A stretch of 33,602 nucleotides of DNA from Bacteroidota bacterium (GTDB lineage Bacteria > Bacteroidota > Bacteroidia > Chitinophagales > Saprospiraceae): NCBI GenBank assembly GCA_006226345.1, contig SBHD01000130.1:1-33602 (forward strand), given 5' to 3'. Positions 2,624-25,847 of this stretch are shown piece after piece. The position numbers and the translations under genes were made by a program. The notes beneath the pieces are model-generated. The model had not been told where the DNA came from, did no database searches, and saw only the letters and a list, made by a program, of their open reading frames with translations. Positions within the stretch are counted from its first letter, which is position 1. Every line of letters begins with the position of its first letter.

Positions 2624-4804
2624 CTACGGCGTAGCTGGCACGCCGCCCGGCGGGCAATGCGCGCGCAGGTAGTTGGTGAACAGCGTAGCGAGGTGTTTGG
2701 AGGTGCCTTCACCTTCCCGGATGCCGTGGGAGCGGTTGGGATAGGGCATAACCTGGAACTGTTTGTTGTATTTGATCAGCTCATTGATGAGCATTTCTGC
2801 ATTTTGGTAATGAACATTATCGTCGCCGGTACCATGAATGTACAGCAGGTTGCCCTGCAGGTTTTTGGCGTAGGTGATCGGCGAGCCGTTGATAAAGTCC
2901 TCCCTGTTTTCCTGCGGCAGCCCCATATACCGTTCCTGGTAGATATTGTCGTATGTCAGTTGGTTGGCTACAGCAGCTACGGAAATGCCGGTCTTGTAGA
3001 TCTCCGGATACTGAAACAACAGGTTCAGGGTGGCCGAACCGCCGCCACTCCAGCCATGAACCGCTACCCGGCTGGTGTCGATCCACTTCCAGCGGTCGAA
3101 CATTTCACGGGCGCCCATAGCCTGATCGCGGATGTTCACGATGCCAATCTTGCGGTAGATGGCCTTGCGCCAGGCGCGTCCTTTGGGCGCAGGCGTGCCC
3201 CGGCCGTCCAGTGAGGCATAGATATAGCCGTCCTTGGCCATATCGCCCTGGTAGAGCCGATTGCGGCCGGCGCCCCAGCGGTCGCGGACCGTGGCGCCTG
3301 CCGGCTCGGTATATACATAAAAGACGATCGGGTATTTTTTTGAAGGATCAAAATTGTCGGGGCGGACCATCCAGCCGTCCATAGTTACTCCGTCGGCAGT
3401 TGTTACCTGGAAAAATTCAGTGTTGTTGTTTTCCGGCGGCTCGATTACCGGCGGAATTGCATTTTCCGCATCGAGCGACTTATGGCGGGGCAGTGTTACC
3501 CATTCCGTTTTGGGGGACGTATAGTAGTTGGAGAAGGTATGGCGTGCATATTGGGCGTCAGGCGAAACAGCATAGTTGTGCGTACCTTTTTGTCCGGCCG
3601 GCGAGAGCCGCTCGGCCTGGCTGTTGCCATCCATCCGGATGCGGTACAGGTATGCCTGTGTGGCATTGTCCGGTGCCGCCAGAAAATACAGGTATCCGCC
3701 GATCTCATCGACACGTTCGAGGCTGATCACGTCATAATCACCTGGCGTCAGCAGGATCTCCTGGCCGCCGTCGCGGGCGATCCGGTACAGGTGCCGCCAA
3801 CCGTCTTTTTCGCTGGTCCAGAGAAAGGCATTACCATCGGCAAGCCAATCCCAGTAGCCGTATGCCCCGTCATCCTTCAGATCGATCCAGGCATCATCCT
3901 GCTCAGTGTAGATGGTCCGGACGCTGCCGGTGCGGACATCACAGAGCATGAGCTGGCTTTCGTTTTGCTTGCGGTTGAGTTGCTGGATCATCAGTTCCTT
4001 TTCGCTGGCTGCCCATTCCATCCGGGGCACATAGGTGTTGCGCGGGTCGCCGGGAATATTCATCCAGGTAGTTTTGCCGGATCCCACATCCGCCACGCCG
4101 ATCCGGTAGGGGGAGGGTTCTTCGCCGACCTTCGGGTATTCCACCGGGATCGTTTGGGCATAGATCGAGTCGGTATTGTTGATCATGAGAAAATCCCGGA
4201 TCTGATTGGCATCGATCTGCCAGTACGCGATTCGCTTGCTGTCGGGGCTCCAGCGAAAACCATCGCGGCAGCTAAACTCTTCCTCGTAGACCCAGTCGAA
4301 CGTACCGTGAATGAGTTTGCGTGACCCTTTGGTCTGGGTCAGCTGCTGGATAGCACCGGTGGCAACATCTTCCACATACAGGTTGTGTTCGCTGACATAG
4401 GCGACTTTTTTTCCGTTGGGGGAAAATTTTGCAAACATGAGCGACGACTCCGGTTTGTCTTTACCCAGCTGGCGTAGTTTGTTCGTTTCCAGGTTTAGCA
4501 CCCAGTAGTCGCCCCGGGTGTCATAGCGCCAGACCCGTTTGCTGTTGGTATAGATGAGCAGGTGCCGGTCGTCGTTGGAAAATGTGAAATCGCGGACAGG
4601 CAGGGGCGCGTCGGCGCCTGCAGGTGTGAGCTGAGCAGCGGTGACCAGGGTGGTTTTACTGCGTTCGGGCAGGGTAACCTTGACAATATTGCCACTATCC
4701 CGGTCAAAGTAGCTGTTGCCTTCAAAGGCCCATTTTATTCCCTGTGCCGGCAGGTTTGTCAGCAGGGAACACAGTATCAGGAGAAGCAGGATACGTTTTT
4801 GCAC
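2624..4804 (-). CDS. Dipeptidyl-peptidase IV family S9B serine peptidase (copy 1)
   Basis: A 726-residue secreted peptidase that should remove N-terminal X-Pro or X-Ala dipeptides. The signal peptide is MQKRILLLLILCSLLTNLPAQ. A DPP IV beta-propeller follows with the substrate-amine-binding DWVYEEEF motif (Asp170-Glu176). The C-terminal hydrolase domain has Ser586 in GWSGGG, Asp661 in HGTGDDNVHYQ and His693 in NRSHGIREG. The spacing Ser-75-Asp-32-His is close to human DPP4 (78 and 32). The start is GTG: the frame upstream reaches a stop within six codons and contains no ATG. The nucleophile loop is GWSGGGSA instead of the common GWSYGGY, so the Tyr next to Ser is absent. It diverges from copy 2 across 244 bp. 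Confidence 0.93.
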   Translation of the reverse strand: MQKRILLLLILCSLLTNLPAQGIKWAFEGNSYFDRDSGNIVKVTLPERSKTTLVTAAQLTPAGADAPLPVRDFTFSNDDRHLLIYTNSKRVWRYDTRGDYWVLNLETNKLRQLGKDKPESSLMFAKFSPNGKKVAYVSEHNLYVEDVATGAIQQLTQTKGSRKLIHGTFDWVYEEEFSCRDGFRWSPDSKRIAYWQIDANQIRDFLMINNTDSIYAQTIPVEYPKVGEEPSPYRIGVADVGSGKTTWMNIPGDPRNTYVPRMEWAASEKELMIQQLNRKQNESQLMLCDVRTGSVRTIYTEQDDAWIDLKDDGAYGYWDWLADGNAFLWTSEKDGWRHLYRIARDGGQEILLTPGDYDVISLERVDEIGGYLYFLAAPDNATQAYLYRIRMDGNSQAERLSPAGQKGTHNYAVSPDAQYARHTFSNYYTSPKTEWVTLPRHKSLDAENAIPPVIEPPENNNTEFFQVTTADGVTMDGWMVRPDNFDPSKKYPIVFYVYTEPAGATVRDRWGAGRNRLYQGDMAKDGYIYASLDGRGTPAPKGRAWRKAIYRKIGIVNIRDQAMGAREMFDRWKWIDTSRVAVHGWSGGGSATLNLLFQYPEIYKTGISVAAVANQLTYDNIYQERYMGLPQENREDFINGSPITYAKNLQGNLLYIHGTGDDNVHYQNAEMLINELIKYNKQFQVMPYPNRSHGIREGEGTSKHLATLFTNYLRAHCPPGGVPATP

Positions 4805-20455: not shown

Positions 20456-21505
20456 ATGAAAAAACATGTCCCCTTTTCACTCCTACTGTTCCTGGTTGTT
20501 TCTGCATGCACGTCGTCGGGTGATGAGCCCGGTGTGCCGGGCAAGCCGGCCCGCTCTTCCTATGATGTTGCGGCCATTGAAGGGTTTATTGTAAAAACCA
20601 GCCCGCTAACGGCCAGTATCACGGCCAGTGGCACCCTGCTACCCCTGGAAGAAACGGAGCTGCATCCGGAAACATCCGGCCGTGTAGTGTCGATCAACCT
20701 GCCAGAGGGCAAACGGGTAAACACGGGTGATCTGTTGGTCAAACTTTTCGATCAGGATCTTCAGACACAATTGCGCAAACTGGAAACTCAACTGAAGCAA
20801 GCCGAGATCACAGAAAAACGGTTGGGCGATCTGCTCCAGGTAAAAGGAGTGAGCCAGCAGGAGTACGACCTGGCAGCACTGGAAGTGCAGACCCTGAAAA
20901 GTGAAATGGAACTGATCCGTATCAATATTGGCAAAACCGAACTGCGCGCTCCCTACAACGGTGTGATCGGTCTCCGCCGGATCAGCCCCGGCGCCTATGT
21001 AACTTCCGCCACCGCAGTAGCTACGATCCGTTCTGCCGGTGCGCTGAAACTCGACTTTTCCGTCCCGGAAAAATATAGCAGCCTGATCCGGATTGGTCAA
21101 TCCGTTACGTTTTCGGTAGAAGGAAACAGCCAGACCTATCAGGCTACCATTCAGGCCACGGAGCAACGGATCACTGCCGATACCCGCAACCTGGAAGTCC
21201 GCGCAGTTGTAAAGGGGAGTCCGGCCGGGCTGCTACCCGGCGCCTTTGCAGAAGTGCAGCTGACCCTGGGGAATAAATCCCAGGCCATACTCATTCCGAC
21301 ACAGTGTATCGTGCCTAAAGCCCGGGACAAACAGGTGTTTGTCAGCCGGAACGGGAAAGCAGAAGCGGTGACGGTCAAGACCGGCGTGCGCCAGACGGAC
21401 ATGGTAGAGATCACCAGCGGGCTGAAAGTAGGCGACACATTGGCAACTACCGGGATACTGTTCCTGCGTCCCGGTGCTCCGATGCAGTTTGCCCGCGTCG
21501 AGTAG
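20456..21505 (+). CDS. RND efflux periplasmic adaptor lipoprotein (HlyD/AcrA family)
   Basis: 349 residues. The signal peptide ends in the lipobox VVSAC, so Cys18 should be lipidated. The barrel-sandwich halves are visible (ELHPETSGRVVSINLPEGKRVNTGDLLVKL and TELRAPYNGVIGLRRISPGAYV), joined by a short coiled coil (about 105-160). They are followed by the beta-barrel and membrane-proximal domains (VLIPTQCIVPKARDKQVFV for the latter, with minor differences). Such adaptors bridge an RND pump to an outer-membrane channel. No pump or TolC-like gene is adjacent. The stop codon TAG is the last part of the GTAG that begins palindromic element A, so the C-terminus (RPGAPMQFARVE) is set by that junction. 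Confidence 0.9.
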   Translation: MKKHVPFSLLLFLVVSACTSSGDEPGVPGKPARSSYDVAAIEGFIVKTSPLTASITASGTLLPLEETELHPETSGRVVSINLPEGKRVNTGDLLVKLFDQDLQTQLRKLETQLKQAEITEKRLGDLLQVKGVSQQEYDLAALEVQTLKSEMELIRINIGKTELRAPYNGVIGLRRISPGAYVTSATAVATIRSAGALKLDFSVPEKYSSLIRIGQSVTFSVEGNSQTYQATIQATEQRITADTRNLEVRAVVKGSPAGLLPGAFAEVQLTLGNKSQAILIPTQCIVPKARDKQVFVSRNGKAEAVTVKTGVRQTDMVEITSGLKVGDTLATTGILFLRPGAPMQFARVE

Positions 21506-21680
21506 GTCGAAATTGTATTTCGACTTTTGTCCGGCGGAAATTGCATTTCCGCTGATAAAAAGAATCCCCTGTACCTTGCTGTATGTTGGATGGATCCAGT
21601 CTTTAAGTAAGGCTTAGTGGCCTTTTTCTGCGGAAATACAATTTCCGCTGCACAGATGTCGAAATACAATTTCGACGTAC
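21502..21680. repeat. REP/BIME-like palindromic element A
   Basis: Four 19-nt palindromes in fixed order: 21506-21524 (GTCGAAAT-TGT-ATTTCGAC), 9 nt, 21534-21552 (GCGGAAAT-TGC-ATTTCCGC), a 77-nt core, 21630-21648 (GCGGAAAT-ACA-ATTTCCGC), 9 nt, 21658-21676 (GTCGAAAT-ACA-ATTTCGAC). The right half is the inverted copy of the left. GTAG flanks the left end (21502-21505, overlapping the adaptor gene's stop) and GTAC the right end (21677-21680). The 11-nt TTTCGACGTAC is tandemly duplicated at 21670-21691. Same build as elements B and C. Confidence 0.92.
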
Positions 21681-21702
21681 TTTCGACGTACAACCACCAG
21701 CC

Positions 21703-22821
21703 ATGAAAATCATGCTCTTCGCTATACCGGTCTTTTTTCTACTGATCGGCCTGGAACTCCTGATCGAGCGGCTGAAGAAGACCCGGCTTTACCGCTTCAA
21801 CGACGCGGTGACCAATATCAGTTGCGGTGTACAGCAGCAGGTTACCGGGGTATTGTTCAAAACAGTTCTCATCGCCGGTTACCTGTGGGTGTACGAACAC
21901 CGGATCTGGACGATTCCCGATACCTGGTGGACTTTTGTGCTGGTCTTCATTGGTGTAGATTTCTGTTACTACTGGTTTCACCGCAGTACCCATGAGGTCA
22001 GCTTTTTATGGGGCACCCATATTGTCCACCACCAAAGCGAAGAATACAACCTGAGTGTAGCACTCCGGCAATCAGCCATCCAGGCTTTTTTGGGCAATGT
22101 TTTTTACCTCCCCCTGGCCCTGCTGGGTTTTCATCCGGTTACCTTTTTGGTCATGAATACGTTCCAGACCTTGTACCAGTTCTGGATTCACACCCGCGCG
22201 GTAGGCAAGCTGCATCGGGTATTTGAGTATGTATTCAACACCCCGTCGCACCACCGGGTACATCATGGCATGAACCCGGCGTATATCGATAAAAACCATG
22301 GCGGCACCCTGATCATCTTCGACCGCTGGTTTGGCACGTTTCAGGAAGAAAAGGAAGAGCCGGTGTACGGTGTGACGGTACCACTCAACAGCTGGAACCC
22401 ACTCTGGGCCCAGATCGACTATTATGTTTGGCTGGCCAAACATCTCTGGTACGCACCATCCTGGCCGGATCGCTGGAATATGCTGTTTCGCAAACCGGGG
22501 TGGATGCCGCAGGCAATGGGAGGCCCGGTGACAGCCCAACCGGTATCAGCGAAGACCTTTCATAAATATGACCTGGCAGTTTCGCCGGCTATTAACCGGT
22601 ACGTATTGGTGAACTTCGTATTGCTGATCGGTGCTACCTTCCTTTTTTTGCAAACAGCAGGTTCTAATCCCGGCTTTAATACGTCCAACCTGGCACTTAC
22701 CGGTTGGATCATCTGGACGACGGCCAGCCTGGGCGGTTTGCTGGAAAACAAGCGCTGGGCGCGTTGGTCGGAAGTACTACGTTGGCTGACCGCTGCCGGA
22801 CTATGGTTCTGGCTGTCCTGA
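21703..22821 (+). CDS. Sterol desaturase/fatty acid hydroxylase family membrane protein
   Basis: 372 residues. The di-iron histidine clusters of the family are complete: His93-RST-His97, HIVHH (106-110), HHRVHH (183-188), plus His199 in KNHGG. Four or more membrane helices surround them (about 4-22, 48-66, 76-92, 125-150), and two to three extra helices follow at the C-terminus after residue 295, making it longer than the minimal family. These enzymes use O2 and a di-iron centre to hydroxylate or desaturate lipids; the substrate is unknown. It begins 22 nt after element A, so any promoter lies in or upstream of that element. The tail is 2 nt from the convergent HemC-like gene. Confidence 0.9.
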   Translation: MKIMLFAIPVFFLLIGLELLIERLKKTRLYRFNDAVTNISCGVQQQVTGVLFKTVLIAGYLWVYEHRIWTIPDTWWTFVLVFIGVDFCYYWFHRSTHEVSFLWGTHIVHHQSEEYNLSVALRQSAIQAFLGNVFYLPLALLGFHPVTFLVMNTFQTLYQFWIHTRAVGKLHRVFEYVFNTPSHHRVHHGMNPAYIDKNHGGTLIIFDRWFGTFQEEKEEPVYGVTVPLNSWNPLWAQIDYYVWLAKHLWYAPSWPDRWNMLFRKPGWMPQAMGGPVTAQPVSAKTFHKYDLAVSPAINRYVLVNFVLLIGATFLFLQTAGSNPGFNTSNLALTGWIIWTTASLGGLLENKRWARWSEVLRWLTAAGLWFWLS

Positions 22822-22823
22822 GT

Positions 22824-23663
22824 TTAGTCGTGCTGTAGTGTTTCCACGATCTTTTCCGCAAGGCCGAAGCTGGTACTTTGCGACAAGCGCACCTGTTTCA
22901 GATGTCCCTCCAATACAGCCGCGGCGCATGCGTGGAAATTGCCGGCCTTATCCCGTTCGACAAACACTCCCAGGGCATCCTGGTAGGCATGGCCCAAGAG
23001 TTGTAGCACTTTGCGTTCTACGTTAGTTACTGCGGATACATCGGGTTGGTGTATCTGTTTGAGTGCCCGCCGGGTGGGCAGGTCGTCGCGGTGGGTTACC
23101 CAGGCCGGTACGCCCTGGGCCGGTGCCGGTACGAATTCCCGTGGATTGAGCACCAGGGTTTCCAGCCCCTCGATGTCAGGTTGTAGCCATTGTAACCGGG
23201 CTGCTGCCAGTATGAGTGCGTCATACTTGCCTTGGTGGAGCTGTTTTAACTGGGAGGATATCTCTTCCGGGGCAGCACATGGCAGCACATCCGGGCGGTA
23301 AAAGTTGAGCTGAGCCTGGCGGATGGTCGTGGAAATCCCAACTGTAGCCTGTTCCCGGAGTTTAAAGACCCGGGTGGCGTCGAAAGCATCCGGCCGGATC
23401 AGCAGCAGATCGGCCGGATCGGTCCGCCGGCCAACGGCTGTAATGACGAGGCCGTCGGGCTGCCGGGTTGGCAGGGCGGTCATTTCAAAGACTGCCAGGT
23501 CGATTGCTCCGTGGAGCAGGGCTTCCTGGACGGGCTTTAGTGGTTCCTGTGCCGGAGTTTCCAGTTGGAGGAGTGTTCCGGTTATGCCAAATTGTTGTAG
23601 TTCCTCCTGAGTAAACCGGGCCAGCCAAACGGCCAATTCATTGCTGCCTGATCCAATGCGCAT
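22824..23663 (-). CDS. Porphobilinogen deaminase (HemC)-like protein lacking catalytic residues
   Basis: 279 residues that align along hydroxymethylbilane synthase (about 310): MRIGSGSNELAVWLA at the start, AIDLAVFEMTALPTRQPDGL, VGISTTIRQAQL, KYDALILAAARLQWL. Key positions differ. The Lys-Asp of MKDLP (E. coli Lys83-Asp84) is Thr62-Ala63. The first Arg of SLRRQ is Ile114. The RGNxxTR loop is absent (APEEISSQLK). The cysteine that carries the dipyrromethane cofactor (GGCQVPIG, Cys242) is Tyr227 in GHAYQDALG. A heme-pathway reaction is therefore very unlikely; the protein may be a binding or regulatory relative. The ATG lies directly against the GTAC end of element B. Confidence 0.8.
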   Translation of the reverse strand: MRIGSGSNELAVWLARFTQEELQQFGITGTLLQLETPAQEPLKPVQEALLHGAIDLAVFEMTALPTRQPDGLVITAVGRRTDPADLLLIRPDAFDATRVFKLREQATVGISTTIRQAQLNFYRPDVLPCAAPEEISSQLKQLHQGKYDALILAAARLQWLQPDIEGLETLVLNPREFVPAPAQGVPAWVTHRDDLPTRRALKQIHQPDVSAVTNVERKVLQLLGHAYQDALGVFVERDKAGNFHACAAAVLEGHLKQVRLSQSTSFGLAEKIVETLQHD

Positions 23664-23846
23664 GTACGTCGAAATTATATTTCGACATCTGTCCGGCGGA
23701 AATTGTATTTCCGCTCAAAATAGGTGTACCCAACAGATGCCGACAGATCTGGTTAATTCGTGTTTTTTGGAAAGTGAGCGGGTTAATAATTGGGGGCGGA
23801 AATACAATTTCCGCTGGGCAAAAGTCGAAATACAATTTTGACGTAC
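23664..23846. repeat. REP/BIME-like palindromic element B (left of the RAYT gene)
   Basis: Palindromes at 23668-23686, 23696-23714, 23796-23814 and 23824-23842, with 9-nt spacers and an 81-nt core. GTAC stands on both outer sides (23664-23667 and 23843-23846). The last palindrome has one change (TTTTGAC for TTTCGAC). The left end touches the start codon of the HemC-like gene, so that gene's leader is this element. The right end lies 52 nt before the transposase start. Confidence 0.92.
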
Positions 23847-23867
23847 AGAAAAAACAGGGGGATTATT

Positions 23868-23875
23868 TATTTTTG
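23868..23875 (+). promoter_or_regulatory. Candidate -7 element of the RAYT gene
   Basis: TATTTTTG matches TAnnTTTG perfectly, 23 nt before the ATG at 23899. A TTTG at 23837-23840, created by the single mutation in the last palindrome of element B, lies 27 nt upstream, a little far for a -33 box. Confidence 0.4.
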
Positions 23876-23898
23876 AAAGGAATATAACCAACCCGACC

Positions 23899-24510
23899 AT
23901 GCCTGCCCGTAAAGATTTTTACCGCAGAAACCTGCCCCATTGGCAGCCTTCCGGCGCCGATTTTTTTGTCACCTTCCGTTTGCACGGGTCGCTTCCCAAG
24001 GATGTGTTGCGCGCCCTGCAACAGGAAAAACACCGACTGGAGTTGGAGGCCGGCAACGACCTGGAAGCCCTTGACCTCGCCCGCAAACGGATGTACGGGA
24101 AATTTGATGCGGCCCTCGATCATGCCACGAACGAACCCTATTGGCTGAAACAACCGGCTATGGCACGAATTGTTGTGGAGGCACTTGAATTCCAGGATGG
24201 GTCGTCGTACATCCTGCATGCTTATACGATCATGCCTAACCATGTCCACGTACTCTTTTCACATTTGCAGGAAGGGCCGGAGTTGCATCGGATCATGCAG
24301 CGTATGAAGCGCCATACTGCCCGGGAGGGTAATATTTTATTAGACCGTACCGGCGCCCAGTTTTGGGAGCGGGAAAGCTACGACCGGGTTGTACGCGACA
24401 ACCGGGAATTTTGGCGAATCTATTGGTATATCCTGAAAAACCCGGAGAAAGCGGGACTGGTGGAGAAGTGGTTTCAGCATCCCTGGACTTGGGGGAAATA
24501 CGAACCGTAA
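23899..24510 (+). CDS. REP-associated tyrosine transposase (RAYT, Y1 HUH family)
   Basis: 203 residues. The N-terminal RNLPHWQPSGADFFVTFRL and GSLP are typical of RAYTs. The HUH metal-binding motif is His115-Val-His117 in MPNHVHVLF. The nucleophilic tyrosine is Tyr161 in FWERESYDRVVRD, and helix YWYILKNPEKAGLV follows. Such proteins nick single-stranded DNA at REP sequences through a 5'-phosphotyrosine link and are thought to spread or rearrange REPs. All catalytic residues are present, so the enzyme looks intact. It ends with a short PWTWGKYEP tail 2 nt before the GTAC of element C. One candidate promoter is noted upstream. Confidence 0.93.
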   Translation: MPARKDFYRRNLPHWQPSGADFFVTFRLHGSLPKDVLRALQQEKHRLELEAGNDLEALDLARKRMYGKFDAALDHATNEPYWLKQPAMARIVVEALEFQDGSSYILHAYTIMPNHVHVLFSHLQEGPELHRIMQRMKRHTAREGNILLDRTGAQFWERESYDRVVRDNREFWRIYWYILKNPEKAGLVEKWFQHPWTWGKYEP

Positions 24511-24512
24511 CT

Positions 24513-24714
24513 GTACGTCGAAATTCAATTTCGACATCCGTACAGCGGAAATTGTATTTCCGCTAATAAAGTCAATGCCCAAAAGATTCACAAAAAGCCG
24601 CTTTGGGAGCCGGGAGGTTAGGTTGTTCCCTGGTTTAGGAACTTAGTGGGTTCCTTGGTTCCGGCGGAAATACAATTTCCGCCGGACAAAAGTCGAAATA
24701 CAATTTCGACCTAC
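24513..24714. repeat. REP/BIME-like palindromic element C (right of the RAYT gene)
   Basis: Palindromes at 24517-24535, 24545-24563, 24664-24682 and 24692-24710, again with 9-nt spacers; the core is 100 nt. GTAC precedes the left end (24513-24516). On the right the flank CTAC (24711-24714) is GTAG on the minus strand and contains the TAG stop of bshA. The cores of A and C share only a short CTTAGTGG stretch before their right halves, so the core is poorly conserved. Confidence 0.92.
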
Positions 24715-25847
24715 GAGACGACGCTGCGTTCGAGCACCGCTTGGTAATAGGCTTCGTAGTGCGGTAGGATGTTGGACAGGTCGAAACGCTTGGCTTGCGC
24801 CAATGCGTTTTTCCGGAATTGTTCCAGCATCTGTTCATTTTGCAGGAGTTCAATAGCGTGCCGGGCCATACCATCGATATCGCCGGGATCGCTCAGGAAG
24901 CCGGTGACGCCATGGGTATTCACTTCCGGTAATCCACCGCTGTTGGAGGAGATGACCGGCACTTCACAGGCCATCGCTTCCAGAGCGGCCAGTCCAAAAC
25001 TTTCACTTTCCGACGGGATTATGAACAAGTCACAGATCGCAAGCAGCTCTTCGATGGCATCCTGCTTTCCGAGGAAGCGTACGTCGTCACATAAATTGAA
25101 CTGCCGGCACAGGCGTTCGGTGTTCTGGCGTTCGGGGCCGTCGCCGATCATCAGGAGCTTGGAAGGAACCTGGTCGTGTACCTGTTTGAAAATATGAATC
25201 ACATCCTCGACCCGTTTTACCTTCCGGAAGTTGGAAGTGTGGGCCAGGATACGCTCGCCATCCGGAGCAATGATCTTTTTAAAATGGTCTTTGTCTACCT
25301 TCCGGAAGCGCTCAAAGTCAATAAAGTTATAGATGACCTCGATGTCCTGATCGATCTTGAACAGGCGGAGGGTGTCGTTTTTCAGACTTTGCGATACCGC
25401 GGTAACGCCATCGCTTTTATTGATGCTAAACTCCACGACCGGAGCAAAAGCGCGGTTATTTCCAACAAGGGTGATATCGGTACCGTGCAGGGTAGTTACT
25501 ACCGGCACGTAACGGCCTTGTGTAAGCAATATCTTTTTGGCCATGTAGGCTACGGCCGCATGCGGAATGGCATAGTGCACGTGGAGGAGGTCGAGGTTCT
25601 GATATTTAACTACATCCACAATAGTGGAAGCCAGTGCAGTGTCATAGGGCGGGTATTCGAAGAGGGGATAATCTTCATTATCCACTTCGTGGTAAAACAC
25701 GTTTTCGTGGAAGTGGGCCAGCCGGACCGGCCGGCGGTAGGTGATAAAATGGACTTCGTGGCCGTTCCGGGCCAGGCCGAGGCCCAGCTCGGTGGCGATA
25801 ACGCCCGAGCCGCCGTAGGTCGGATAGCAAACAATGCCGATCTTCAT
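24711..25847 (-). CDS. bshA: N-acetyl-alpha-D-glucosaminyl L-malate synthase BshA (bacillithiol biosynthesis)
   Basis: 378 residues, the normal length, GT4 glycosyltransferase. MKIGIVCYPTYGGSGVIATELG at the start and the HVHYAIPHAA segment are specific for BshA. The UDP-GlcNAc-binding C-terminal domain shows ESFGLAALEAMACEVPVISS and GGLPEV. It joins UDP-N-acetylglucosamine and L-malate in the first step of bacillithiol, the low-molecular-weight thiol of many Bacteroidota. bshB and bshC are not in the window. Its TAG stop is part of the GTAG end of element C, so the last residues (ERSVVS) are defined by the repeat junction. Confidence 0.93.
   Translation of the reverse strand: MKIGIVCYPTYGGSGVIATELGLGLARNGHEVHFITYRRPVRLAHFHENVFYHEVDNEDYPLFEYPPYDTALASTIVDVVKYQNLDLLHVHYAIPHAAVAYMAKKILLTQGRYVPVVTTLHGTDITLVGNNRAFAPVVEFSINKSDGVTAVSQSLKNDTLRLFKIDQDIEVIYNFIDFERFRKVDKDHFKKIIAPDGERILAHTSNFRKVKRVEDVIHIFKQVHDQVPSKLLMIGDGPERQNTERLCRQFNLCDDVRFLGKQDAIEELLAICDLFIIPSESESFGLAALEAMACEVPVISSNSGGLPEVNTHGVTGFLSDPGDIDGMARHAIELLQNEQMLEQFRKNALAQAKRFDLSNILPHYEAYYQAVLERSVVS

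Follow-up and report, generated by a model that had tools for sequence, protein, structure and literature searches.

The 33,602-nt stretch analysed here (the window; contig SBHD01000130.1 of assembly GCA_006226345.1, a Bacteroidota bacterium of the Saprospiraceae) carries a gene for a REP-associated tyrosine transposase (RAYT; REP, repetitive extragenic palindrome) and three palindromic elements, A, B and C, the last two of which bracket the gene. Each element comprises four 8-3-8 palindromes in two inverted halves, on the plan GTA(G/C)-outer palindrome-9 nt-inner palindrome-core-inner palindrome-9 nt-outer palindrome-(G/C)TAC. The first-pass annotation of the window had described four palindromes in each element, cores of 77, 81 and 100 nt and a complete Y1/HUH transposase gene between B and C; all 12 palindromes were found where it had placed them, and the core lengths and the gene were also right. 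The features are as follows.

21502-21680, element A
21502-21552, plus strand, element A left half: GTAG tag at 21502-21505 and outer palindrome at 21506-21524, followed after a 9-nt spacer by the inner palindrome at 21534-21552
21553-21629, no strand, element A core, 77 nt
21630-21680, minus strand, element A right half: inner palindrome 21630-21648, outer palindrome 21658-21676, tag GTAC on the minus strand
23664-23846, element B
23664-23714, plus strand, element B left half: GTAC tag, immediately outside the start codon of hemC
23715-23795, no strand, element B core, 81 nt
23796-23846, minus strand, element B right half: outer palindrome with one mismatch
23899-24510, plus strand, RAYT gene, 203 aa, between elements B and C
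24513-24714, element C
24513-24563, plus strand, element C left half: tag GTAC, just 3' of the RAYT stop codon
24564-24663, no strand, element C core, 100 nt
24664-24714, minus strand, element C right half: its tag supplies, as TAG, the bshA stop codon
23664-24714, no strand, B-RAYT-C, the whole of the proposed REPtron (a RAYT gene with its cognate repeats), filling the space between hemC and bshA

Outer-type palindromes (GTCGAAATnnnATTTCGAC) occur six times in the window, five exact and one with 1 mismatch, and inner-type palindromes (GCGGAAATnnnATTTCCGC) six times, all exact; with up to 2 mismatches allowed, dinucleotide-shuffled windows gave on average 0.00 and 0.01 matches, respectively. 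The two types have the five loop-proximal bases GAAAT in common and differ at the stem base, GTC in the outer and GCG in the inner palindrome. A GTAG or GTAC tag stands at the outer side of every half. A possible inner palindrome at position 3451 (2 mismatches, no partner) was attributed to chance, and a match at position 2588 with 5 mismatches was dropped. Directly past the right end of element A, TTTCGACGTAC recurs (21670-21691), perhaps as the remnant of a second outer palindrome.

The RAYT protein contains the HUH motif N114-H115-V116-H117, W-E at positions 156-157 and, at an HUH-Tyr distance of about 62 residues, the motif YILKNP, in which Y177 is presumably the catalytic tyrosine. It matched the Pfam Y1_Tnp profile with 23.4 bits, just over the cut-off of 23, and the NCBIfam profile of REP-associated tyrosine transposases with 66.4 bits. 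In a profile search the closest solved structure was 4er8, a complex of E. coli TnpA-REP with a REP hairpin (E 2.9e-10), and the same structure was the best Foldseek match of the AlphaFold model (E 1.4e-7, template modelling scores 0.54/0.66; mean predicted local distance difference test score 88.6). By sequence and predicted fold the protein is a Y1/HUH transposase of the TnpA-REP branch, with R135, R138 and R158 as putative REP-reading residues. Homologue matches at E 1e-3, some of them weak, were obtained in 27 of 60 genomes, its own included.

The draft genome (5.2 Mb in 410 contigs) was searched for further copies, the halves being counted in the stretches fetched around matches and the outer palindromes at up to 2 mismatches, with no tag required in the search. 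It was found to contain 24 halves, dispersed and mostly extragenic, and one RAYT copy. The tag, which had escaped the first-pass annotation, proved the key diagnostic: it was present at all 24 outer palindromes, as GTAG in 17 and GTAC in 7. The inner palindrome was present in each of the 23 halves not cut off by a contig end, in agreement with the two-palindrome half-site proposed for A, B and C. The same annotation had taken the 19-9-19 arrangement as a ruler that might fit a transposase dimer. The 9-nt spacers of A, B and C stood, and the ruler proved not to be rigid, since the spacer is 9 nt in 15 and 8 nt in 8 of the 23 readable halves; a dimer ruler was not supported beyond this 8-9 nt spacing. 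In place of a canonical tag the spacer usually ends in GTCC plus one base just before the inner hairpin. Weak matches in contigs C104, C137, C155, C184 and C212, with no partner palindrome and no tag immediately at the foot, were not counted, nor were one-mismatch inner matches in C1, C27, C146, C156 and at C201:9550.

Stem pairs were changed on both sides in 6 of 16 pairs (11 cells) and never on one side, and 98.9 percent of stem cells were paired, compared with 94.8 percent in shuffles. Since one-sided (G-U) stem changes are absent, the selected structure would be that of DNA and not of RNA. Folded as DNA, the tag strand gave two hairpins in all four halves examined, though with additional pairing between tag and spacer in the left half of element C.

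Seven halves have no partner (at up to 3 mismatches, in the stretch read), 12 lie in six inverted pairs, 3 are clustered and 2 are at contig edges. The cores of the six pairs range from 47 to 160 nt, those outside A, B and C measuring 47, 72 and 160 nt. In 15 pairwise comparisons of these cores 12 were unremarkable against shuffles, and two cores hold inverted repeats with T runs that look terminator-like by eye. Because halves occur alone and the cores lack clear homology, the repeat unit is probably the half element, GTA(G/C)-outer hairpin-8/9 nt-inner hairpin, and not the four-palindrome element, the cores probably being native intergenic DNA.

The positions of the halves relative to genes were then compared with the same places in relatives. 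In the window the neighbouring genes are the following.

21703-22821, plus strand, fatty-acid hydroxylase superfamily protein, between element A and hemC
22824-23663, minus strand, hemC (hydroxymethylbilane synthase)
24711-25847, minus strand, bshA

The tag of the left half of element A contains, as its TAG, the stop codon of an efflux adaptor gene. The hemC start codon adjoins the element B tag (23661-23664), so the hemC promoter and ribosome-binding site would sit in element B. Among the 17 GTAG ends of the genome, 10 have as their TAG exactly the stop codon of a frame, at least 123 codons long, that reads into the element; 3 have a stop elsewhere, 2 have it 12 nt past the tag start, and 2 are on contigs too short to judge. 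REP termini often provide TAG stops (PMC3733652; papers are cited here by PMC number and for the passages available). In two related loci the RAYT gene ends in a stop codon that doubles as the GTAA or GTAG tag of the palindrome following it (L018 at 2118, L044 at 1468).

Many halves lie directly 3' of the stop codon of a housekeeping gene, secA being one example. In the 9 relatives in which secA was found (10 searched) its stop falls at the same codon in 8 and one codon later in 1, and this element is absent; three of the 9 already end in AAG-TAG, which fits a half joining behind a pre-existing GTAG. Neither at the malic enzyme gene nor at the kynureninase gene was this element found in any of the relatives compared, the gene ends there differing in sequence. 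A palindrome GGCGAATT-nnn-AATTCGCC was noted 3' of secA in one genome (G061, L193) and 3' of the kynureninase gene in another (G023, L221).

The bshA stretch was compared in 29 relatives. hemC was seen in 9 of these, adjacent to bshA at 11-273 nt and with no RAYT between the two genes; on the fetched bshA stretch of the remaining 20 hemC was not found. The corresponding gap in the window is 1047 nt and is exactly B-RAYT-C. The exact half motif occurs in one of 42 genomes of the genus, that of the window; copies are dispersed within that genome and the exact motif is missing from the other 41, so it is neither confined to this locus nor widespread in the genus without the RAYT, the two outcomes that, according to the first-pass annotation, would break the link with the transposase. 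In relative G062 (L076/L106) the bshA-hemC space is occupied by another REP-like array, GTAA-tagged and of the form CGCCGTCT-nnn-AGACGGCG; its first tag is formed by the native bshA end GAG-TAA. The core pattern of this array was found at 34 places in G062, 11 in G023 and 1 in G032, the other 39 genus genomes having none; a reversed control pattern gave one match, in G031. No RAYT was found on the fetched G062 stretch, no search aimed at a G062 RAYT having been made. Apparent in-frame insertions in the bshA of relative G017 (L104) were rejected, being runs of N at assembly gaps.

The relationship between RAYTs and palindromes was surveyed in the best 80 of 477 named RAYT relatives. Families of at least 3 same-arm palindromes were present near the RAYT gene at 47 of the 80 loci and in 1 of 130 distant segments, and GTA tags were carried by 309 of 423 palindromes near a RAYT, compared with 19 of 78 distant ones. 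A RAYT core with at least 2 tagged palindromes of one family was obtained at 68 of 90 loci. RAYT protein distance and palindrome arm distance were correlated (Mantel r 0.242, with 0 of 5000 permutations as high), the arms differing at 0.43 of 7 positions at RAYT distances below 0.35 and at about 4 above 0.55; judged from these sequences, RAYT and palindrome co-diverge. With arm positions counted back from the loop, base -6 is C in 60 of 68 loci, as it is in the outer but not in the usual inner palindrome of the window.

Tagged tandem pairs no more than 15 nt apart were found at 12 of 93 loci, 7 of them in the genus of the window and including the window. A strict scan for twin-hairpin inverted pairs gave 9 of 158 loci, with L018 and L121 representing one locus, and 0 in block-shuffled sequences. 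Another twin arrangement was noted in L027 and L028; the outer ACCGACT and inner GCGCCAT of L028 are wholly unlike and its inner palindrome is untagged, and this imperfect twin, seen by eye, lies outside the 9 loci of the strict scan. Palindromes of the cognate family fall within the RAYT reading frame in L026 (about 1426-1442) and L044 (about 2001-2021), in both cases in an insertion near residues 41-62, ahead of the HUH motif; the window gene has none. Palindromes thought to lie inside the RAYT gene of L030 were rejected, as a strand check places them outside.

Covariation between residues and bases was analysed over 99 RAYT-palindrome pairs from several phyla with short perfect palindromes. 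In a training scan residue classes were compared with arm bases in 68 pairs (55.7 effective); the classes were set on these data and the arms were chosen by a script. The held-out set came from a search of 395 genomes of the phylum of the window and is not wholly independent of the training set. It gave 69 loci, from which 6 with at least 90 percent identity to training were dropped, and 31 of the remaining 63 had usable palindromes; the 32 RAYTs with no usable tagged palindromes were at most 40 percent identical to any training RAYT in 19 cases and closer in 13. Many of the top z-scores of the training scan were set aside as near-invariant columns with little information. The informative pairs, in the residue numbering of the window protein, were 158 with -4, 138 with -2, 38 with -4, and 135 with -3 and -1; the link of residue 38 failed in the held-out set.

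Histidine at position 158 goes with A at -4 (14/15 training, 9/9 held out) and alanine, aspartate or glutamate with G (25/25 and 7/7); arginine goes with A in 9/14 and 2/3 cases, and other residues are mixed. The firm part of this rule (His, Ala, Asp, Glu) was applicable in 16 of the 31 held-out cases and right in all 16, and the held-out association of position 158 with base -4 had a Fisher p of 8.7e-5. For position 138 the held-out cases gave A/T at -2 with Lys or Arg in 13/15, C/G with Ser in 6/6 and C with Gly in 4/6, and at -1 C with Lys in 8/9 and T with Arg in 4/6. Taken as single predictors over the 31 cases, residue 138 was best at -2 (16, baseline 11) and at -1 (23, baseline 12), and residues 158 and 15 tied at -4 (23 each, baseline 13). 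Residue 135 was weaker than 138 and 158 and fell outside the six best held-out predictors of -3. Tyrosine at 15 goes with A at -4 (14/19 training, 10/10 held out; 24/29 over both sets) and tyrosine at 16 with A at -5 (8/9); residues 15 and 16, in the region of the N-terminal strand, may make an additional contact.

Independent tip pairs were drawn over the joined training and held-out sets from a tree built without columns 135, 138 and 158. For His versus Asp/Ala/Glu at 158 they gave 9 differences as predicted, 0 opposite and 1 without difference, and with the His or Arg class 12, 0 and 2; for Lys/Arg versus Ser/Gly at 138 they gave 13, 1 and 5. At position 135 the counts were 7, 1 and 7 for base -3 and 3, 0 and 3 for base -1. 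In the alignment to 4er8, R138 corresponds to K82, R135 to E79, R158 to P96 and W156 to W94; the numbering was counted by hand and agrees with W94, Q95, E100, H101 and R104 of PMC6006769. K82 of E. coli TnpA-REP is reported to contact the REP base C27 (PMC8266576). At the 56 loci with more than one arm the within-locus variation was 0.02 at -6, 0.06 at -5 and 0.04 at -4, while base -4 differs in 0.56 of between-locus pairs; at -3, -2 and -1 it was 0.28, 0.32 and 0.16, and this variation weakens a strict reading of -2 by residue 138. R135, R138 and R158 of the window agree with its own hairpins (A at -4, A at -3, A at -2, T at -1), R158 being a less decisive residue than His. From the sequences compared, the covariation suggests a candidate recognition code in which the amino acids reading individual hairpin bases can be named. 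It is possible, at somewhat short of an even chance, that in this RAYT branch residue 158, the second one past the conserved Trp, sets -4 (A for His; G for Asp, Ala or Glu) and residue 138 of helix alpha3 sets -2/-1 (A/T and mostly T, respectively, for Arg; mostly A/T, followed by C, for Lys; mostly CT for Gly), that the cognate repeat could be partly predicted from the protein, and that the lineage of the window reads a twin hairpin, the outer guiding the cut and the inner holding a second transposase molecule; the estimate for the code together with the twin-hairpin reading is kept this low because base -2 varies within loci.

The covariation could also be a by-product of shared ancestry and not of recognition, an explanation considered unlikely. 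RAYTs and palindromes co-diverge as a whole, transfer from the nearest relative alone gets base -4 right in 22 of the 31 held-out cases, position 15 does as well as 158 there, and bases -3 and -2 vary within loci. Ancestry does not readily account for the independent tip pairs at 158, none of which opposed the prediction, for the 4 of 4 held-out cases in which residue 158 (His, Ala, Asp or Glu) was right where the nearest relative predicts another base, or for the alignment of residue 138 with a published REP contact. The covariation bears in turn on the view that the repeats are kept for a host function (protection of mRNA 3' ends, termination or gyrase binding) and that their link with the RAYT is incidental. 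Such roles are assigned to REPs in the literature (PMC3733652) and would suit the many copies directly 3' of housekeeping stop codons; the covariation with the RAYT, the absence of the half motif from 41 other genus genomes and from the same sites in the relatives compared, and stem changes that are never one-sided make this view very unlikely.

What moves is a related matter. RAYT, B and C could be an autonomous insertion sequence of the IS200/IS605 kind moving as one, with the other copies as its non-autonomous derivatives, and B-RAYT-C does fill the bshA-hemC space exactly, from the tag at the bshA stop to the tag at the hemC start, where 9 of 29 relatives have the two genes adjacent without it. 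The genome contains a single RAYT copy and not several near-identical autonomous ones, the tyrosine motif is YILKNP and not the Y---Q of TnpA-IS200 (PMC6006769), and in G062 this space is taken up by another REP array, the stretch fetched there having yielded no RAYT; this explanation is therefore held to be distinctly improbable. A miniature inverted-repeat transposable element of four palindromes, bounded by terminal inverted repeats of about 51 nt and moving as one piece, would suit the six simple inverted pairs of similar format with their tags outside, and three of the 15 core comparisons were low against shuffles (3, 3 and 10 of 200). The other 12 were unremarkable against shuffles and give no clear sign of shared internal sequence, core length varies from 47 to 160 nt, two cores have terminator-like features by eye and seven halves stand alone; given cores without clear homology and solitary halves, this reading was rejected as highly improbable. 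The system is very probably a REPtron of one RAYT gene and cognate REP repeats with the half element as unit. A REP/BIME-RAYT system (BIME, bacterial interspersed mosaic element) of Bacteroidota had been suggested, and the suggestion is borne out by 4er8 as the closest structure by sequence and fold, the tags at 24 of 24 outer palindromes, the dispersed copies and the co-divergence. Several observations weigh against the REPtron reading. Besides the three low core comparisons, the copy number is low (24 halves, compared with hundreds in classical REP genomes), a count qualified by an assembly in 410 contigs with several copies at contig ends. Seven of the 24 tags are GTAC rather than GT(A/G)G, and the inner palindrome has no canonical tag and mostly G at -6, where C is near-universal. 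The NCBIfam score of 66.4 is under the cut-off of 80. The complementary strand likewise formed both hairpins in the two halves tested, so folding alone shows no strand preference. Not every junction is a plain join behind an existing stop, since the last residues of bshA are replaced: the window protein ends in ..VVS and relatives in ..VVKVE or similar (K/T-V/I-E in 14 of 14 relatives compared, in place of which the window has one S ahead of the stop; the end differs again in L100 and L101).

By analogy with published TnpA-REP biochemistry, the tag strand of the REPtron, when single-stranded (probably at the replication fork), would fold into two hairpins. The RAYT would read the loop-proximal stem through helix alpha3 (R138, perhaps R135) and R158 of the W-loop, together with the tag, cut by means of Y177 and join the half behind GTA(G/C) in single-stranded target DNA. 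Stop codons with a preceding G would be tolerated targets, and where both sides of one intergenic space were hit an inverted pair around native intergenic DNA would result. Both hairpins are expected to be bound because they share the five loop-proximal pairs GAAAT, and the outer is expected to guide cleavage because it alone has the canonical tag, the inner serving as a second binding site.

These results bear on the choice of a REP by its RAYT and on the spread of REPs, and the 99 RAYT-repeat pairs compared constitute a natural experiment. What is published on this choice, in the passages available, comprises contacts in one E. coli structure, SELEX (systematic evolution of ligands by exponential enrichment) on three proteins and RAYT-REP co-evolution; residue-to-base covariation is absent from the available passages of PMC6006769, PMC3733652, PMC8266576 and PMC2817692. 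Searches of the open-licence literature, apart from figures and supplements, which were outside the scope and could show such cases, brought up no paper dealing with twin-hairpin REPs, RAYT residue-to-base covariation or REPs of Saprospiraceae. The covariation names candidate positions, one of which aligns with a published contact, so that specificity can be tested with one-residue exchanges. The identity of the moving unit is a further matter on which the twin-hairpin repeat, its solitary copies and the stop-codon tags bear.

With IS200/IS605 elements (IS608, ISDra2) the window system shares the fold, the chemistry by homology, hairpins near the ends and a 4-nt guide 5' of the hairpin; its tyrosine motif differs and its genome contains no multicopy autonomous element. 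Subclass 2.6 (RAYT group 5) of Bacteroidetes has the same host phylum, but is described in the passages of PMC6006769 as lacking the GT(A/G)G tag and having weaker structures and a longer HUH-Tyr distance, whereas the hairpins of the window are strong and tagged. Subclass 2.4 (RAYT group 4), from Cyanobacteria and Bacteroidetes, is characterized in the same source by NH(IFV)H, WQ and YIxNNP and by REP insertions within tnpA-REP genes. The window RAYT has the NHVH motif and a tyrosine motif close to YIxNNP (YILNNP in its relatives L018, L022 and L045), and its relatives L026 and L044 have a cognate palindrome inside the RAYT reading frame. It differs in W-E (W156-E157) instead of W-Q, in YILKNP and in its HUH-Tyr distance of about 62 residues; the insertions of its relatives precede HUH and do not lie between HUH and Tyr, and a twin-hairpin unit is not described for subclass 2.4 in the available passages of PMC6006769. 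The Proteobacterial REPtrons (REPs with RAYT/TnpA-REP, also REPINs/BIMEs) have the same HUH single-tyrosine transposase, tagged flanking palindromes, inverted pairs with a variable core, single-copy transposase gene and cognate pairs, and there too the tag supplies TAG stop codons (PMC3733652). As in these systems, GT(A/G)G stands at the 5' foot of the hairpin in 17 of 24 cases (GTAG), the 7 GTAC tags departing at the last base; palindromes, those of elements B and C, lie on both sides of the RAYT gene; and the RAYT has its own repeat family, as seen from the half motif in one of 42 genomes and from co-divergence. The window system departs from them in its GTAG or GTAC tag, its low copy number and its repeat unit, in which two perfect hairpins that are unlike each other follow in the same orientation at a distance of 8-9 nt. 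REP-RAYT systems are a known kind, and it is by this paired unit that the present one stands out.

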